A stretch of 64,000 nucleotides of DNA from Scleromatobacter humisilvae (GTDB lineage Bacteria > Pseudomonadota > Gammaproteobacteria > Burkholderiales > Burkholderiaceae_C), in the NCBI RefSeq assembly GCF_023231945.1, contig NZ_JAJLJH010000001.1, forward strand, positions 248,001 to 312,000. Direction: 5' to 3'. Numbering within the stretch: the stretch's first letter is position 1; each line of letters opens with the position of its first letter. Under the pieces are notes generated by a model, which did no database searches, was not told where the DNA came from, and was given only the letters and a program-made list of their open reading frames with translations. Position numbers and translations under genes: made by a program. Below, in pieces: positions 3,587 to 47,293 of the stretch.

Positions 3587-4171
3587 GTGACCGCCCCGCT
3601 CATCCGCCCCGCCACCGTCGACGACGTCGACACCCTCTGCCGCCTCGGCGCCGCCACCTTCCGCGAGACCTACCGCCCCATCAGCGATCCGCGCGAGGTC
3701 GATGACTACGCCGACGAGCATTTCACGCGCGCCAGGATCGAGGCCTGGCTGCACAGGACGGACGCGCGCACGCTGCTCGCGTCCTTGGCGGACGCGCCGG
3801 TCGGCTACGCCCACGTGCGCCGCGCCGCGGTGCCCGACTGCGTCGCCGACCCCGAGGCCGTCGAGCTGTCTCGCCTGTACCTGTTGGGCTCGGCGCAAGG
3901 CGTGGGGCTCGGCAGCGCGTTGATGGCCGAGGCCATCGCGCAGATCGCCGCGCTGGGCGCCCGCACGGCGTGGCTGGGCGCGTACGACCGCAACGTCAAG
4001 GCGCTGGCCTTCTATGCGCGCCACGGCTTCGTGCAGGCCGGCACGCACGCGTTCGAGTTCGGCGGCCGGATCCACGCCGATCCGGTGCTGACACGTGCTG
4101 TGACACCGGCCGCGCGAGGCCCGTCTATCATTCGCGCCTCGCAAAACATTCCCCGGAGATTGCCCCGATGA
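3587..4171 (+). CDS. GNAT-family N-acetyltransferase
   Basis: Transfers an acetyl group from acetyl-CoA to an amine on an unknown acceptor. Residues 1-165 follow the GNAT fold: IRPATVDDVDTLCRL at strand 1, the acetyl-CoA pyrophosphate loop GSAQGVGLGSALMAEA (the Q/R-x-x-G-x-G/A motif, around residues 104-115), and NVKALAFYARHGF near the C-terminus. The GTG at 3587 gives the expected N-terminus. The last 25 residues after the domain are Arg-rich and atypical; the stop TGA overlaps the ATG of the next gene (ATGA), so the tail may simply reflect read-through to a coupled stop. Confidence 0.88.
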   Translation: MTAPLIRPATVDDVDTLCRLGAATFRETYRPISDPREVDDYADEHFTRARIEAWLHRTDARTLLASLADAPVGYAHVRRAAVPDCVADPEAVELSRLYLLGSAQGVGLGSALMAEAIAQIAALGARTAWLGAYDRNVKALAFYARHGFVQAGTHAFEFGGRIHADPVLTRAVTPAARGPSIIRASQNIPRRLPR

Positions 4172-15345: not shown

Positions 15346-16101
15346 TCAGACCTTGCGCAGCTGGACGCCGCCCGCGAGCAACGCGCGCGTCACGCGCGCG
15401 GGCGTCTCGCGCGCGACGGCCAGCAGGCTGATCTCCGGCAAGGCCGCCACGACGAAGGGCGACGCCGCCATCAGCTTCTCGGGCGACGCGAGCACCACCG
15501 TCTCGGCCGCGCGGGCGTGCAGCGCGCGCTTGACGGCGGCCTCCTCCGCGTCGCCGGTGCTCAGGCCCGCGTCGGGGTGGACGCCGGTCACGCCGAGGAA
15601 GAACAGGTCGGCGCGCAGGCGCGATGCCGCGGCGATGACGTCCGCGCCCACGTTGACCATCGAGTGCCGGAACAGCCGGCCGCCCAGCAGCAGGATCTCG
15701 ACGCCCGCGTGCTGCGCGAGCTCGATCGCCACGGTGGGGCTGTGCGTGACGACGGTCGCGCGCAGGCCCGGCGCCAGGTGGCGCGCGACCTGCAGCGCGG
15801 TCGTCCCGCCGTCGAGGATCACGACCTGCCCCGGCTCGACCAGCGAGGCGCCGAAGCGCCCGAGCGCGACCTTGTCGGCGGTCGAGACCTGCTCGCGCAC
15901 CGCGAGGTCCCCCATCGCCGCTGACGCCGGCAGCGCGCCGCCGTGCACGCGCTGCAGCAGGCCCTCGGCGGCGAGGTCCCGCAGGTCGCGGCGGATGGTG
16001 TCCTCGGAGGTGCCGAGCTCCTGCGCGAGCGCCTTGGCGACGAGCTGGCCCTCGGCGGCGAGGCGCGCCAGCAGCAGCTTCTTGCGTTGGGTGGTGAGCA
16101 T
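15346..16101 (-). CDS. DeoR-family transcriptional regulator
   Basis: A 251-aa repressor-type protein. Residues 1-57 form the DeoR winged helix-turn-helix (LLARLAAEGQLVAKALAQEL, TSEDTIRRDLRDLAAEGLLQRVHGGA). Residues 75-230 form the sugar-phosphate-sensing domain related to ribose-5-phosphate isomerase, with VILDGGTTALQVARHL, VVTHSPTVAIELA and GVHPDAGLSTGD. The effector is presumably a phosphorylated sugar. The gene is divergent from nudK across 75 bp that contain three CACGAWAC repeats, so it probably regulates itself and nudK. Confidence 0.93.
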   Translation of the reverse strand: MLTTQRKKLLLARLAAEGQLVAKALAQELGTSEDTIRRDLRDLAAEGLLQRVHGGALPASAAMGDLAVREQVSTADKVALGRFGASLVEPGQVVILDGGTTALQVARHLAPGLRATVVTHSPTVAIELAQHAGVEILLLGGRLFRHSMVNVGADVIAAASRLRADLFFLGVTGVHPDAGLSTGDAEEAAVKRALHARAAETVVLASPEKLMAASPFVVAALPEISLLAVARETPARVTRALLAGGVQLRKV

Positions 16102-43990: not shown

Positions 43991-44446
43991 ATGCGCCCTG
44001 CCCTGCTCGCCTGCACCCTGTCGCTGTTCGCGATCCACGCCGTCGCCGCGGCCCTGCCGTCCGAGGCCGACGTCAACGCCACCGCCGCCGAGGTCAAGGC
44101 GGCCGAGATCGCCTTCGCCAGGAGCATGGCCGACCGCCGGTTCGATCGCTTCACCGACTACGTCGCCGAGGACGCCGTCTTCAACGGCCGCGAGATGCAG
44201 ATCGGCCGCGCCGCCGTCCTCAAGACCTGGAAGGCGTACTTCGACGCGCCCAAGCCGCCGTTCAGCTGGGCCCCCGACGCCATCGCGCCGACCGCGGACC
44301 GCCACCACGCGATCTCGACCGGCCTGGTGCACGATCAGGACGGCAAGCTCATCGGCCGCTACACGACGATCTGGCGCAAGGAGGCAGACGGCCACTGGCG
44401 CGCCGTCGCGGACCAGGGCGTCGGCGTGGACTGCCCCATCAAGTGA
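43991..44446 (+). CDS. Exported SnoaL/DUF4440-like protein
   Basis: A 151-aa protein with a Sec signal (residues 1-19, ALLACTLSLFAIHAVAAA) and a cone-shaped NTF2-like domain: VKAAEIAFARSMADRRFDRFTDYVAEDAVFNGREMQIGRAAVLKTWKAYF, then STGLVHDQDGKLIGRYTTIWRKEADGHWRAVADQG. The pattern fits the DUF4440/SnoaL-like group, in which members bind small ligands or act as isomerases. No catalytic assignment is possible. The stop lies 1 bp from the convergent M3 peptidase stop. Confidence 0.85.
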   Translation: MRPALLACTLSLFAIHAVAAALPSEADVNATAAEVKAAEIAFARSMADRRFDRFTDYVAEDAVFNGREMQIGRAAVLKTWKAYFDAPKPPFSWAPDAIAPTADRHHAISTGLVHDQDGKLIGRYTTIWRKEADGHWRAVADQGVGVDCPIK

Positions 44447-44447
44447 T

Positions 44448-46604
44448 TCAGTACTCGACGTCCTCGGGCAGCAGCCCGCGCTTGCGCAGCAGCGGCTCGA
44501 TCGACGGCATGCGCCCACGGAAGGCCGCGTAGGCCTGCTGCGGCGCGACGCTGTCGCCCGCGCCGTAGATGCACTGGCGCAGCCGCGCGGCCGTCACCGG
44601 GTCGAACGCGCTGCCGGCCTCCTTGAAGGCGTCGAAGGCGTCGGCGTCCAGCACCTCGGCCCACAGGTAGACGTAATACCCTGCGGCGTATGCGGAGCCG
44701 GAGAACAGGTGCTGGAAGTGCAGCAGCCGGTGGTTGACGCCCACCTCGGGCGGCAGGTTCAGCCGCGCCAGCGTGGCGGCCTCGAACTCGGGCAGGTCGG
44801 CCGGCGGCTCCTTGTCGGTGCGCGAGTGCACGGCCATGTCGACCAGCGCACTGCCGGCGTAGCGCACCGTCTCGTAGGCCTGGCCCCAGCGGCGCGACTC
44901 CTGCAGGCGGCGCACCAGCGTCTCGGGGATGGGCTCGCCGGTCTGCCAGTGGCGGGCGTGGCGCGCGATCACCTCGGGCTCGAGCAGCCAGTGCTCGTAC
45001 AGCTGCGAGGGCAGCTCGACGAAGTCGCGCAGCACGTTGGTGCCGGACAGCCGCTGGTAGGTCACGTTCGACAGCAGCCCGTGCAGGCCGTGGCCGAACT
45101 CGTGGAACAGCGTGCGTGCGTCGTCGAAGGACAGCAGCGTCGGCTCGCCGGGCGCGCCCTTGGCGAAGTTGTTGTTGTTCATGATGACCGGCAGGTCGAC
45201 CGGGCCGTTGCGCGACTGCAGCCGCAGCGAGCTCATCCACGCGCCGGAGCGCTTGGTCTGGCGCGCGAAGTTGTCGTGCAGGAAGATGCCGATCAGCCTT
45301 CCTTCGCCGCTTGCGCGGCCGCCGCGCTCGGCCGCTCCGGAGCCAGGCCGCGCCCCCCCTGGGGGGTGGTTCGGCGTACCCGCCGAATCGGGGGCCGTGT
45401 CGTCCCACACCTCGTAAGGCACGACGTCGGGGTGGTAGACGGGAATGGCGTCGTTGCGCACCATGCGGATGCCGAACAGCCGATGCGCGCAGTCGAACGC
45501 CGCCTGCACCATGCGATCGAGCGAGAAGTACGGCTTGACCTCGCCGTCGTCGAAGGCGTAGCGCTGCTGGCGCACCTTCTCGGAGCCGTAGCGCCAGTCC
45601 CAGGCCATGTACGGCGCGGCGACGCCCGCATCGCGCAGCGCCTCGTGCACCGCCTTGCGCTCGTCCTGCAGCGCGGCGAGCGCGCGCGAGTAGACGTCGT
45701 CCAGCAGCGTGTTGACCGAGGCCACGTTGCCGGCCATCGTGTTGGCCAGCGCGTACTCGGCATAGCTCGCGTGGCCATGCATCCAGGCCTGCTCCTGGCG
45801 CAGGCGCAGGATGTCGCGCGCGACCTCGCGGTTGTCCGTCTCGCCCTCGTTCTCGCCGCGGCCGACCCAGGCCTTCCACGCGCGTTCGCGCAGCTCGCGC
45901 CGCGTCGAGAACGTCAGGAAGGGCACGATCAGCGAGCGCGACAGCGTCACCACGTGCGTGCCCTCGGCGAGACCGCGGTCGCTCGCGGCCTGGCGCGCGG
46001 ACGCGCGCACGAAGGGCGGCAGGCCGTCGAGCTCGTCGTCCGACAGCTCCAGCTGGAAGCCGGCCTCGTCGGCCAGCACGTTCTGCGCGAAGCGGGTGGT
46101 GAGCTGCGCGAGGCGCTCCATGATCTGCGCGTAGCGCGGCTGCTTGTCCGCGCCCAGCTTCGCGCCGGCGCGCACGAAGTCGACGTGCAGGCGCTCGACG
46201 AGGCGCAGCTGTTCGGGCGACAGGCCGGGCTCGTGCCGCTTCGCATGCACCGCGTCGAGCCGCGCGAACAGGCCCGCGTGCATCATCACGGCGCTGTCGT
46301 GCGCGGCCAGCGGGGCGGCCAGCTCGCGCTGCACGGCCTGGATGTCGGGCGAGGTGTGCGAGGCCGCGAGCGCGTGGAACGCGGCCTCGATGCGCGACAG
46401 CAAGCGGCCGCTGCGATCGAACGCGGCCACCGTGTTGTCGAAGTCTGGAGCATCCGCATTCGCGGCGATGGCCTCCACCTCGGCGCGCTGCGCCTGCATC
46501 GCGGCCTCGAAGGCCGGCGCGAAATGGGACGCCCGGATCAGGTCGAACGGCGGCAGTGCGAACGGCGTCGTCCAGTCGGCGAGAAGGGGATTGGTGGCGG
46601 TCAT
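44448..46604 (-). CDS. prlC: M3 family oligopeptidase A
   Basis: A zinc metallopeptidase of 718 aa that degrades cytoplasmic oligopeptides and signal peptides. The zinc motif is LFHEFGHGLHG (about residues 499-509), with the third ligand Glu in the following FVELPSQLYEHW. The remaining M3 landmarks are VRYAGSALVDMA and FQHLFSGSAYAAGYYVYLWAEVLDADAF. Between EVWDD and RLIGIFLHDNFAR the family normally has few residues; here about 32 low-complexity residues (GTPNHPPGGARPGSG) are inserted in frame, coded by a palindromic repeat (45301-45398). Whether the enzyme is still active cannot be told. ATG 46604 is used; upstream ATGs add nothing conserved. Confidence 0.92.
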   Translation of the reverse strand: MTATNPLLADWTTPFALPPFDLIRASHFAPAFEAAMQAQRAEVEAIAANADAPDFDNTVAAFDRSGRLLSRIEAAFHALAASHTSPDIQAVQRELAAPLAAHDSAVMMHAGLFARLDAVHAKRHEPGLSPEQLRLVERLHVDFVRAGAKLGADKQPRYAQIMERLAQLTTRFAQNVLADEAGFQLELSDDELDGLPPFVRASARQAASDRGLAEGTHVVTLSRSLIVPFLTFSTRRELRERAWKAWVGRGENEGETDNREVARDILRLRQEQAWMHGHASYAEYALANTMAGNVASVNTLLDDVYSRALAALQDERKAVHEALRDAGVAAPYMAWDWRYGSEKVRQQRYAFDDGEVKPYFSLDRMVQAAFDCAHRLFGIRMVRNDAIPVYHPDVVPYEVWDDTAPDSAGTPNHPPGGARPGSGAAERGGRASGEGRLIGIFLHDNFARQTKRSGAWMSSLRLQSRNGPVDLPVIMNNNNFAKGAPGEPTLLSFDDARTLFHEFGHGLHGLLSNVTYQRLSGTNVLRDFVELPSQLYEHWLLEPEVIARHARHWQTGEPIPETLVRRLQESRRWGQAYETVRYAGSALVDMAVHSRTDKEPPADLPEFEAATLARLNLPPEVGVNHRLLHFQHLFSGSAYAAGYYVYLWAEVLDADAFDAFKEAGSAFDPVTAARLRQCIYGAGDSVAPQQAYAAFRGRMPSIEPLLRKRGLLPEDVEY
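45301..45398. repeat. GC-rich palindromic repeat inserted inside the M3 peptidase gene
   Basis: This roughly 96-bp segment has three palindromes in close order: GCTCCGGAGC (45334-45343), CCCCCCTGGGGGG (45354-45366) and TTCGGCG-TACC-CGCCGAA (45370-45387). It corresponds exactly to the extra residues of the peptidase. From memory, dispersed intergenic repeats with a CCCCCTGGGGGG-like core occur in many Burkholderiales genomes, so I read this as one copy that landed in a coding region in frame. No second copy was seen in the window. Confidence 0.7.
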
Positions 46605-46762
46605 GGCGGAAGGTTGGGCTTCTTGTGGAGGCGCTTCGGGCATCGGGTCGACCCGCTGTCGGGCACCCGCGAACGCGGCGATCATGCCAGTGCTCATGCA
46701 TCGGGCACATCGGGAAGGATACGGCCCCCGCCGACCTCCCCATTCATCGAGAGGAGATTGAC

Positions 46763-47293
46763 ATGCGCTGGCTCGTCCGGGTCGCCGCAGGCCTGGTCGC
46801 CGTCGTGCTGCTGGCGGTCGTCGCCGGCTTCCTGCTGCCCGACACCTACCGCGTCGAGCGCAGCGCCGTCGTCAACGCCCCGCCCGAGCGCATCTACCCG
46901 CTGGTGGCGGCGCCGAAGCGCTGGCCGGAATGGTCGATGTGGAACCGCCGCGACCCCGCGATGGCGATGACGTTCTTCGGCCCCGAGTCGGGCGCCGGCG
47001 CCGGCTGGAGCTGGGACAGCAAGACCGAGGGCAAGGGCCGCATGACCTTCCTCACGGCCGATCCCGCCAGGGGCTTCACGTACCAGCTGTACTTTCCCGA
47101 CTACGACTCGACGTCGACCGGCGACATCCGCTTCGAGCCGCAGGGCGACGCCACGAAGATCACCTGGACGAACGCCGGCAGCGTCGGCCGCAACCCGCTG
47201 ATGCACTACATGGCGCGCTTCATGGACCGCATGGTCGGCCCCGACTTCGAGGCCGGCCTGGCCAACCTGAAGACGCTGGCGGAGCGCCGCTGA
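46763..47293 (+). CDS. SRPBCC-family (polyketide cyclase/START-like) protein
   Basis: A 176-aa protein with an N-terminal hydrophobic helix (VRVAAGLVAVVLLAVVAGFLLP), probably a membrane anchor, followed by a START-like lipid/ligand-binding domain: YRVERSAVVNAPPERIYPLVAAPKRWPEWSMWNRRDP, then WTNAGSVGRNPLMHYMARFMDRMVGPDFEAGLANLK. The start has GAGGAG 6 bp upstream. This SRPBCC group is common in proteobacteria, and its ligand is unknown. The prolyl oligopeptidase gene follows in the same direction after about 80 bp. Confidence 0.9.
   Translation: MRWLVRVAAGLVAVVLLAVVAGFLLPDTYRVERSAVVNAPPERIYPLVAAPKRWPEWSMWNRRDPAMAMTFFGPESGAGAGWSWDSKTEGKGRMTFLTADPARGFTYQLYFPDYDSTSTGDIRFEPQGDATKITWTNAGSVGRNPLMHYMARFMDRMVGPDFEAGLANLKTLAERR

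Follow-up and report, generated by a model that had tools for sequence, protein, structure and literature searches.

An extra segment inside an M3 peptidase gene of Scleromatobacter humisilvae, lying in the 64,000-nucleotide stretch of DNA that we analysed (hereafter, the window), is very probably one copy of a REP-like dispersed repeat, structured and non-autonomous, that belongs to a betaproteobacterial genus near Rubrivivax, and we regard this as the best explanation of the whole. The repeat forms a family within the genome, is inserted in frame in the peptidase gene, is missing from the corresponding sites of relatives, lies preferentially at gene borders and shows covariation between the paired positions of its copies.

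The starting point was a sequence-only reading of the window, which had proposed that a GC-rich palindromic segment encodes about 32 extra residues in the peptidase and that no stop codon results. Both parts stand. The palindromes GCTCCGGAGC and CCCCCCTGGGGGG are present in the segment alongside a third (hairpin 3 in Table 1), and a longer pair, GCGCGGCC (45313–45320) and GGCCGCGC (45346–45353), surrounds the first of them. The open reading frame continues across the repeat segment and, when compared with three orthologues of the same genus, the gene has a net gain of 96 bp, or 32 amino acids.

Table 1. Coordinates, in window positions, of the repeat copy, its hairpins and its host gene
Feature	Position	Strand	Basis
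M3 peptidase gene (Dcp-like), carries the insert	44448..46697	-	749 aa ORF
HEFGH zinc motif, residues 532–536, intact	45090..45104	-	ORF translation, homologue alignment
Part of insert with pLDDT <50, residues 436–463 (codons)	45309..45392	-	AlphaFold2
Repeat copy, extent used in the family alignment	45309..45402	+	blastn, covariance model
Covariance-model match of the M3 copy	45315-45396		covariance model
Hairpin 1, left arm, pairs with 45346–45351	45315..45320	+	4/6 helix 1 pairs changed on both sides
Hairpin 1, right arm	45346..45351	+	covariation count, palindrome inspection
Hairpin 2 (CCCC..GGGG), near-constant	45355..45365	+	no change on both sides
Hairpin 3, TTCGGCG-TACC-CGCCGAA	45370..45387	+	7/8 helix 3 pairs changed on both sides

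That the segment belongs to a dispersed repeat, as the earlier reading had surmised, was borne out by two genome searches. With 45295–45405 as the query, blastn placed the repeat at no fewer than 26 sites of the genome, the query itself included (6.27 Mb in 28 contigs; 40 of 214 first-look candidates scored). A covariance model of 82 positions, describing an element of about 80–100 bp with three hairpins, gave at least 39 matches at E ≤ 0.1 and at least 32 at E ≤ 0.001 in the window's genome, and at least 35, 36 and 5 (E ≤ 0.001) in the other three genomes of the genus; the model was built from 19 copies that it later recovered and 150 of 15,223 candidates were scored, and these counts are neither independent nor complete. 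The three additional genomes are fragmented drafts of 210–630 contigs with 2–7% contamination (two of them at 5 and 7%). Within the window, the M3 copy is the sole clear match to the model; the next (15802–15876, minus strand, 17.8 bits, E 0.18) is weak and probably due to chance.

Beyond the genus, a sample of the bacterial family searched with stricter filters had a repeat match at E ≤ 1e-5 in 22 of 150 genomes, two of the 22 belonging to this genus. One genome of another genus (G085) has 17 matches at that threshold, several of them in tandem with a spacing of 87 bases. Tandem arrays also occur in the sister genome G001, with spacings of 96 bases at L214 (3661–4031) and L203 (1501–1679), 111 bases at L241 (2072–2375), and 90 and 89 bases at L206 (1501–1759); the spacings at L214, L241 and L203 are multiples of three. 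The 87-base spacing recurs at L202 of G002 (1501–1663) and at L082/L086 of the window's genome. Searches of existing collections were negative: Rfam, at gathering scores, had no match in 20 copy loci of the window's genome or in window positions 44300–46800, a distant blastn search did not find the repeat in a plasmid collection, and the exact 23-base core was not found in viral contigs. Among the titles listed in searches of a literature collection with few subscription journals, none concerned this three-hairpin family, and a text search for a 14-base core returned no paper.

The evidence for structure comes from comparison between copies. Alignment A3 has 41 rows, 39 of them distinct, and on these 39 we set a three-helix structure by hand. 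Under this structure, 85.1% of paired cells can pair, compared with 70.9% after shuffling and 37–47% when the structure is slid along the alignment, and the covariation score is 0.299, compared with 0.104 and 0.04–0.06, respectively; the shuffle comparison is inflated by related rows, and the model to which A3 had been fitted already contained part of the tested structure (from RNAalifold). The covariation is located in helices 1 and 3, whereas helix 2 hardly varies. The number of pairs changed on both sides (11) is less telling, as it was reached by 35 of 500 shuffles. The RNAalifold structure itself included little of helices 1 and 3. The M3 copy folds no better than dinucleotide shuffles of itself (z 0.33); among five copies, this one and three more (z −0.55, −1.27 and 0.11) are not clearly beyond their shuffles, and one is (z −3.36). 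The folding of single copies is mostly unremarkable; the case for a structured element is built on covariation among them.

The copies are far from randomly placed with respect to genes. For the end tests, the element was oriented as in the window, and its right end is the one that carries a short tag, GTCA or CTCA, in 27 of the 39 copies of the window's genome and 53 of the 77 copies of the relatives, whereas it is present in 3.7% of 12-base stretches taken from the window. The M3 copy is among the 12 of 39 without this tag, which three of the six intragenic copies of the window's genome carry. The stop codon of a neighbouring gene falls within −12 to +8 bases of the right end in 19 of the 39 copies, and an ATG within −3 to +9 bases in another 8, whereas the same test at 3974 random window positions gave 1.1% and 1.0%. 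Together, the copies that meet a stop or a start codon at this defined end number 27 of 39, where 2% would be expected; the opposite end, tested in mirror image, has no stop and two ATGs in 39 copies. Conversely, intragenic copies are depleted, at 6 of 39 (15%) versus 51% of random positions (P 4e-6, conservative test). The 77 copies of the relatives comprised 27 with stops, 9 with ATGs, 6 intragenic, 17 other and 18 unclear, with orthologous copies among them that are not independent. They came from 64 of 69 loci (L103, L106, L109, L111 and L248 were omitted as duplicates of L241, L206 and L091) and 77 of 84 rows (omitting four L094 rows that repeat L214, together with L108 at a contig end, the partial L232 and the weak L223 263–340).

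We also considered the possibility that the element supplies the stop codon of the adjoining gene, and kept this idea in part: 11 of the 19 stops begin 3–7 bases past the end of the model. At 6 of the 19 stop-adjacent copies the stop is TAA or TAG, and not the TGA of the tag. Gene borders may be chosen by the element itself, or be the places where selection has left it; the exactness of the fit would favour some degree of target choice. The sequence-only reading, which had described a single intragenic case, was incomplete, given that this genome has six copies within genes and that, of the others, most abut a gene border at one end.

The same positional data raise the question of whether the element acts primarily at the RNA level, as a 3′-end structure that follows stop codons and stabilizes or terminates the mRNA, with the intragenic copies being strays. 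Such a role is compatible with the best explanation, and we consider it a serious possibility, albeit a less than even one. It would suit both the stop codons that adjoin one defined end in nearly half of the copies and the compensatory changes in helices 1 and 3, but not the 8 copies that adjoin a start codon or the 6 within genes; moreover, no T-run follows the hairpins in the copies inspected by eye, and selection on a DNA hairpin could also explain the covariation.

Returning to the copy in the window, the product of its host gene has both a Peptidase_M3 match (Pfam PF01432, E 2.3e-107, in two stretches, the best at 466–741) and the HEXXH motif that mark a member of that family. Its closest NCBIfam model is PRK10280 (Dcp), at 515.7 bits and thus below that model's own cut-off of 944, and the solved Dcp-type relatives 5l43 and 1y79 likewise match in two stretches. 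The Pfam, NCBIfam and solved-structure matches all break at the segment that the earlier reading had singled out. At this site, the window gene reads EVWDD...RLIGIF, whereas the three same-genus genomes, which lack the segment, have EVHDGDRLIGIF-type sequence. The statement that the family has almost no residues here proved accurate: 37 residues separate the two anchors in the M3 protein, compared with 5–7 in all 73 scorable homologues (5 or 6 in 72, and 7 in one). The homologues derive from 80 loci of named records (80 kept of 104), of which 73 were cleanly translatable over the matched range and 7 were left out due to a stop within it; three of the 73 (L113–L115) are probably the same three same-genus genomes. 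Judged from these alignments, the insertion is one that arose on the lineage of the window's genome.

The insert occupies the position of a beta-hairpin turn and ends ~68 residues before the HEFGH motif in the sequence; the nearness to the zinc active site that the earlier reading proposed is a conjecture. An AlphaFold2 model based on 42 sequences (mean pLDDT 86.7) has residues 436–463 hanging between strands at 426–432 and 467–477, and the insert is, in this predicted structure, an unstructured loop. With the frame open and the zinc motif intact, the proposal that the gene acquired a new loop without being abolished holds. Codon changes unique to the window lineage amount to 8 nonsynonymous and 17 synonymous, and the same count in the three same-genus relatives gives 15/31, 14/44 and 14/41; these small numbers, some of which may predate the insertion, give no clear sign of relaxed constraint or of a dying gene.

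The peptidase is not the only host. A codon-usage scan placed 6 of the 39 copies inside a frame that is open and coding-like on both sides (the weak spans L082 and L201, score 11, were left out of this count), and family searches identified the hosts as the M3 peptidase, a rad3/DinG-type helicase, a hydantoinase A/B, MoeA, a hotdog thioesterase and a glutamine-synthetase-like protein. Alignment with the three sister genomes revealed that the M3, MoeA and thioesterase sites are filled in the window's genome only. The helicase site is filled in the window's genome and G002 and empty in G003, and by our reading the G001 copy has decayed. The hydantoinase site is filled in the window's genome, G001 and G002 and empty in G003, and the glutamine synthetase site is filled in the window's genome and G002, partly filled in G003 and empty in G001.

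Additional copies within reading frames were encountered in the course of this comparison. In G001, uvrA (L212, C301, 1–2688) has an in-frame copy at 1501–1580; the site is empty in the window's genome and G002, and the G003 contig starts too late to be scored. A second, double-length uvrA-like gene of G001 (L237, C503) carries an in-frame copy at 896–970. An acyl-CoA dehydrogenase copy is common to G003 and G001, and at L244 (G001:C144), about 1501–1575, the copy in the acyl-CoA dehydrogenase gene is followed in frame by what seems to be a partial duplicate of its edge (SGLSNVTAPLAALAADGGSGLSN). Finally, a GGDEF-like protein, recognized by eye from its motif, reads on through a copy at its C-terminus (L080, G000:C10:50527–50603).

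The six host genes of the window's genome read the repeat in five different combinations of strand and frame, so the encoded peptides differ between genes. Taken together with the pattern of filled and empty sites, this makes the peptide look like a by-product of the insertion. Several unrelated genes carry in-frame copies, the frame differs between them, and some orthologues have none, as is looked for in an RPE-like way of working. The repeat is GC-rich, so 21 of the 39 copies have no stop in any of the six frames, compared with 506 of 3000 random 82-base stretches of the window, and in-frame insertions can consequently be read through as loops.

An adaptive origin of the M3 loop, as a new regulatory or binding element, is improbable. 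The kept frame, open gene and HEFGH motif would be compatible with adaptation, but the loop is missing from the 73 homologues scored, its predicted structure is of low confidence, and the same repeat, read in differing frames, gives other genes different peptides. We think it more improbable still that the insert is an assembly or binning artefact. It is true that the window's genome is a draft and that the sister genomes are fragmented and contaminated; however, the window's contig is 1.98 Mb long in a genome that is 100% complete and 0.46% contaminated, the protein flanks on either side are 87–95% identical to those of same-genus orthologues, and the helicase, hydantoinase and glutamine synthetase insertions are common to separate assemblies. 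An old, gene-specific insertion that merely resembles repeats, for which the sequence-only reading had named as the sign a lone copy with the same loop in all close relatives, has next to no chance of being correct, because the comparison went the opposite way, with copies across the genome and empty orthologous sites.

The reading of the segment as a dispersed repeat that moves, in the sense that the term “mobile” was applied to it earlier, stands insofar as some same-genus genomes have a copy at a given site and others do not; it does not extend to an enzyme, a clear target duplication or live movement. Y1 (RAYT/IS200-type) transposases were the sole family sought, and the two PF01797 genes found had no model match at E ≤ 1 in their 3.3-kb loci. 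A loose text search of these loci for the core, with ≤3 errors allowed, produced 3 and 11 matches, but the model does not bear out this RAYT linkage. Neither a clear target-site duplication nor terminal inverted repeats, as expected for MITEs, were seen by eye in the filled/empty alignments, whose junctions are too diverged to decide.

We envisage that a non-autonomous hairpin element reaches new sites by a transposition-like process, moved by an enzyme acting in trans, and that copies would survive mainly where one defined end meets a stop or start codon and the insertion is least harmful. Occasional survival within genes would depend upon a length divisible by three and a site that can accept a loop, such that the insert is read through and persists as a neutral, or nearly neutral, unstructured stretch; the M3 peptidase copy is probably one such case on the window lineage. 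Taken to its full extent, this scheme describes an undescribed three-hairpin GTCA/CTCA element, present in part of the bacterial family, that is moved in trans with a preference for stop/start junctions and repeatedly supplies housekeeping proteins and those of DNA repair, that of uvrA among them, with loops of ~25–37 residues; we put it forward tentatively, and doubt that every part of it is correct.

Protein-invading palindromic repeats, which are frequent in Rickettsia, are hereby extended to a GC-rich betaproteobacterial genus. For seven genes, the genus contains orthologues both with and without the insertion, so that the insertions can be dated and their cost tested, and one can ask how small repeats create additional loops in proteins. 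The precision with which one end meets stop or start codons is, in addition, a sharp clue to target choice or selection.

Several known systems resemble this repeat. The enterobacterial repeat units RU-1/2/3 are described as mobile sequences of 103–168 bp that are both intergenic and translated within genes (Delihas, 2007; PMC2759123); ours is, by description, the same kind of intergenic and intragenic repeat in other organisms. The QMITEs of Coxiella are described as small and mobile, and as extending an ORF or entering one in frame on occasion (PMC5896051). They are classed as MITEs, in contrast to our element, in which we recognized no terminal inverted repeats or target duplication by eye. 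GTAG/CGTC REPs are palindromes of 20–40 bp that adjoin the 3′ ends of ORFs and carry a short end tag (Di Nocera, 2013; PMC3733652), and the intragenic ones are, according to the same paper, often in DNA repair genes, uvrA among them. Our repeat shares with them its proximity to ORF ends, a short tag at one end and its presence within genes, including uvrA, but it differs in carrying GTCA or CTCA, and not GTAG, as its conserved end motif, in its size and three helices in place of a single 20–40 bp hairpin, and in the two RAYT-type loci being free of model matches. CGTC REPs have a terminal CGTC (or TGTC, CCTC). The sequence [CT]GTC does occur near the tag end, on the third hairpin's 3′ side, in 25 of 39 copies of the window's genome and 39 of 77 copies of the relatives; however, the stem that PMC3733652 gives for CGTC REPs (8–9 bp, A-T-led, with a 4–5 base loop and a CCA-type tail) is not that of our element. 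Lastly, Rickettsia palindromic elements are described as palindromic repeats (~150 bp in PMC10969869) that lie in frame in unrelated genes and add extra peptides (PMC10969869, PMC3733652), as ours does; the comparison is by description, and the differences are a host with a 6.3-Mb GC-rich betaproteobacterial genome and the placement of most copies with one end at a gene border. We have therefore filed the repeat as a putative separate family that would work like REPs and RPEs, but lies outside the GTAG/CGTC REPs and, by description, outside the RPEs.
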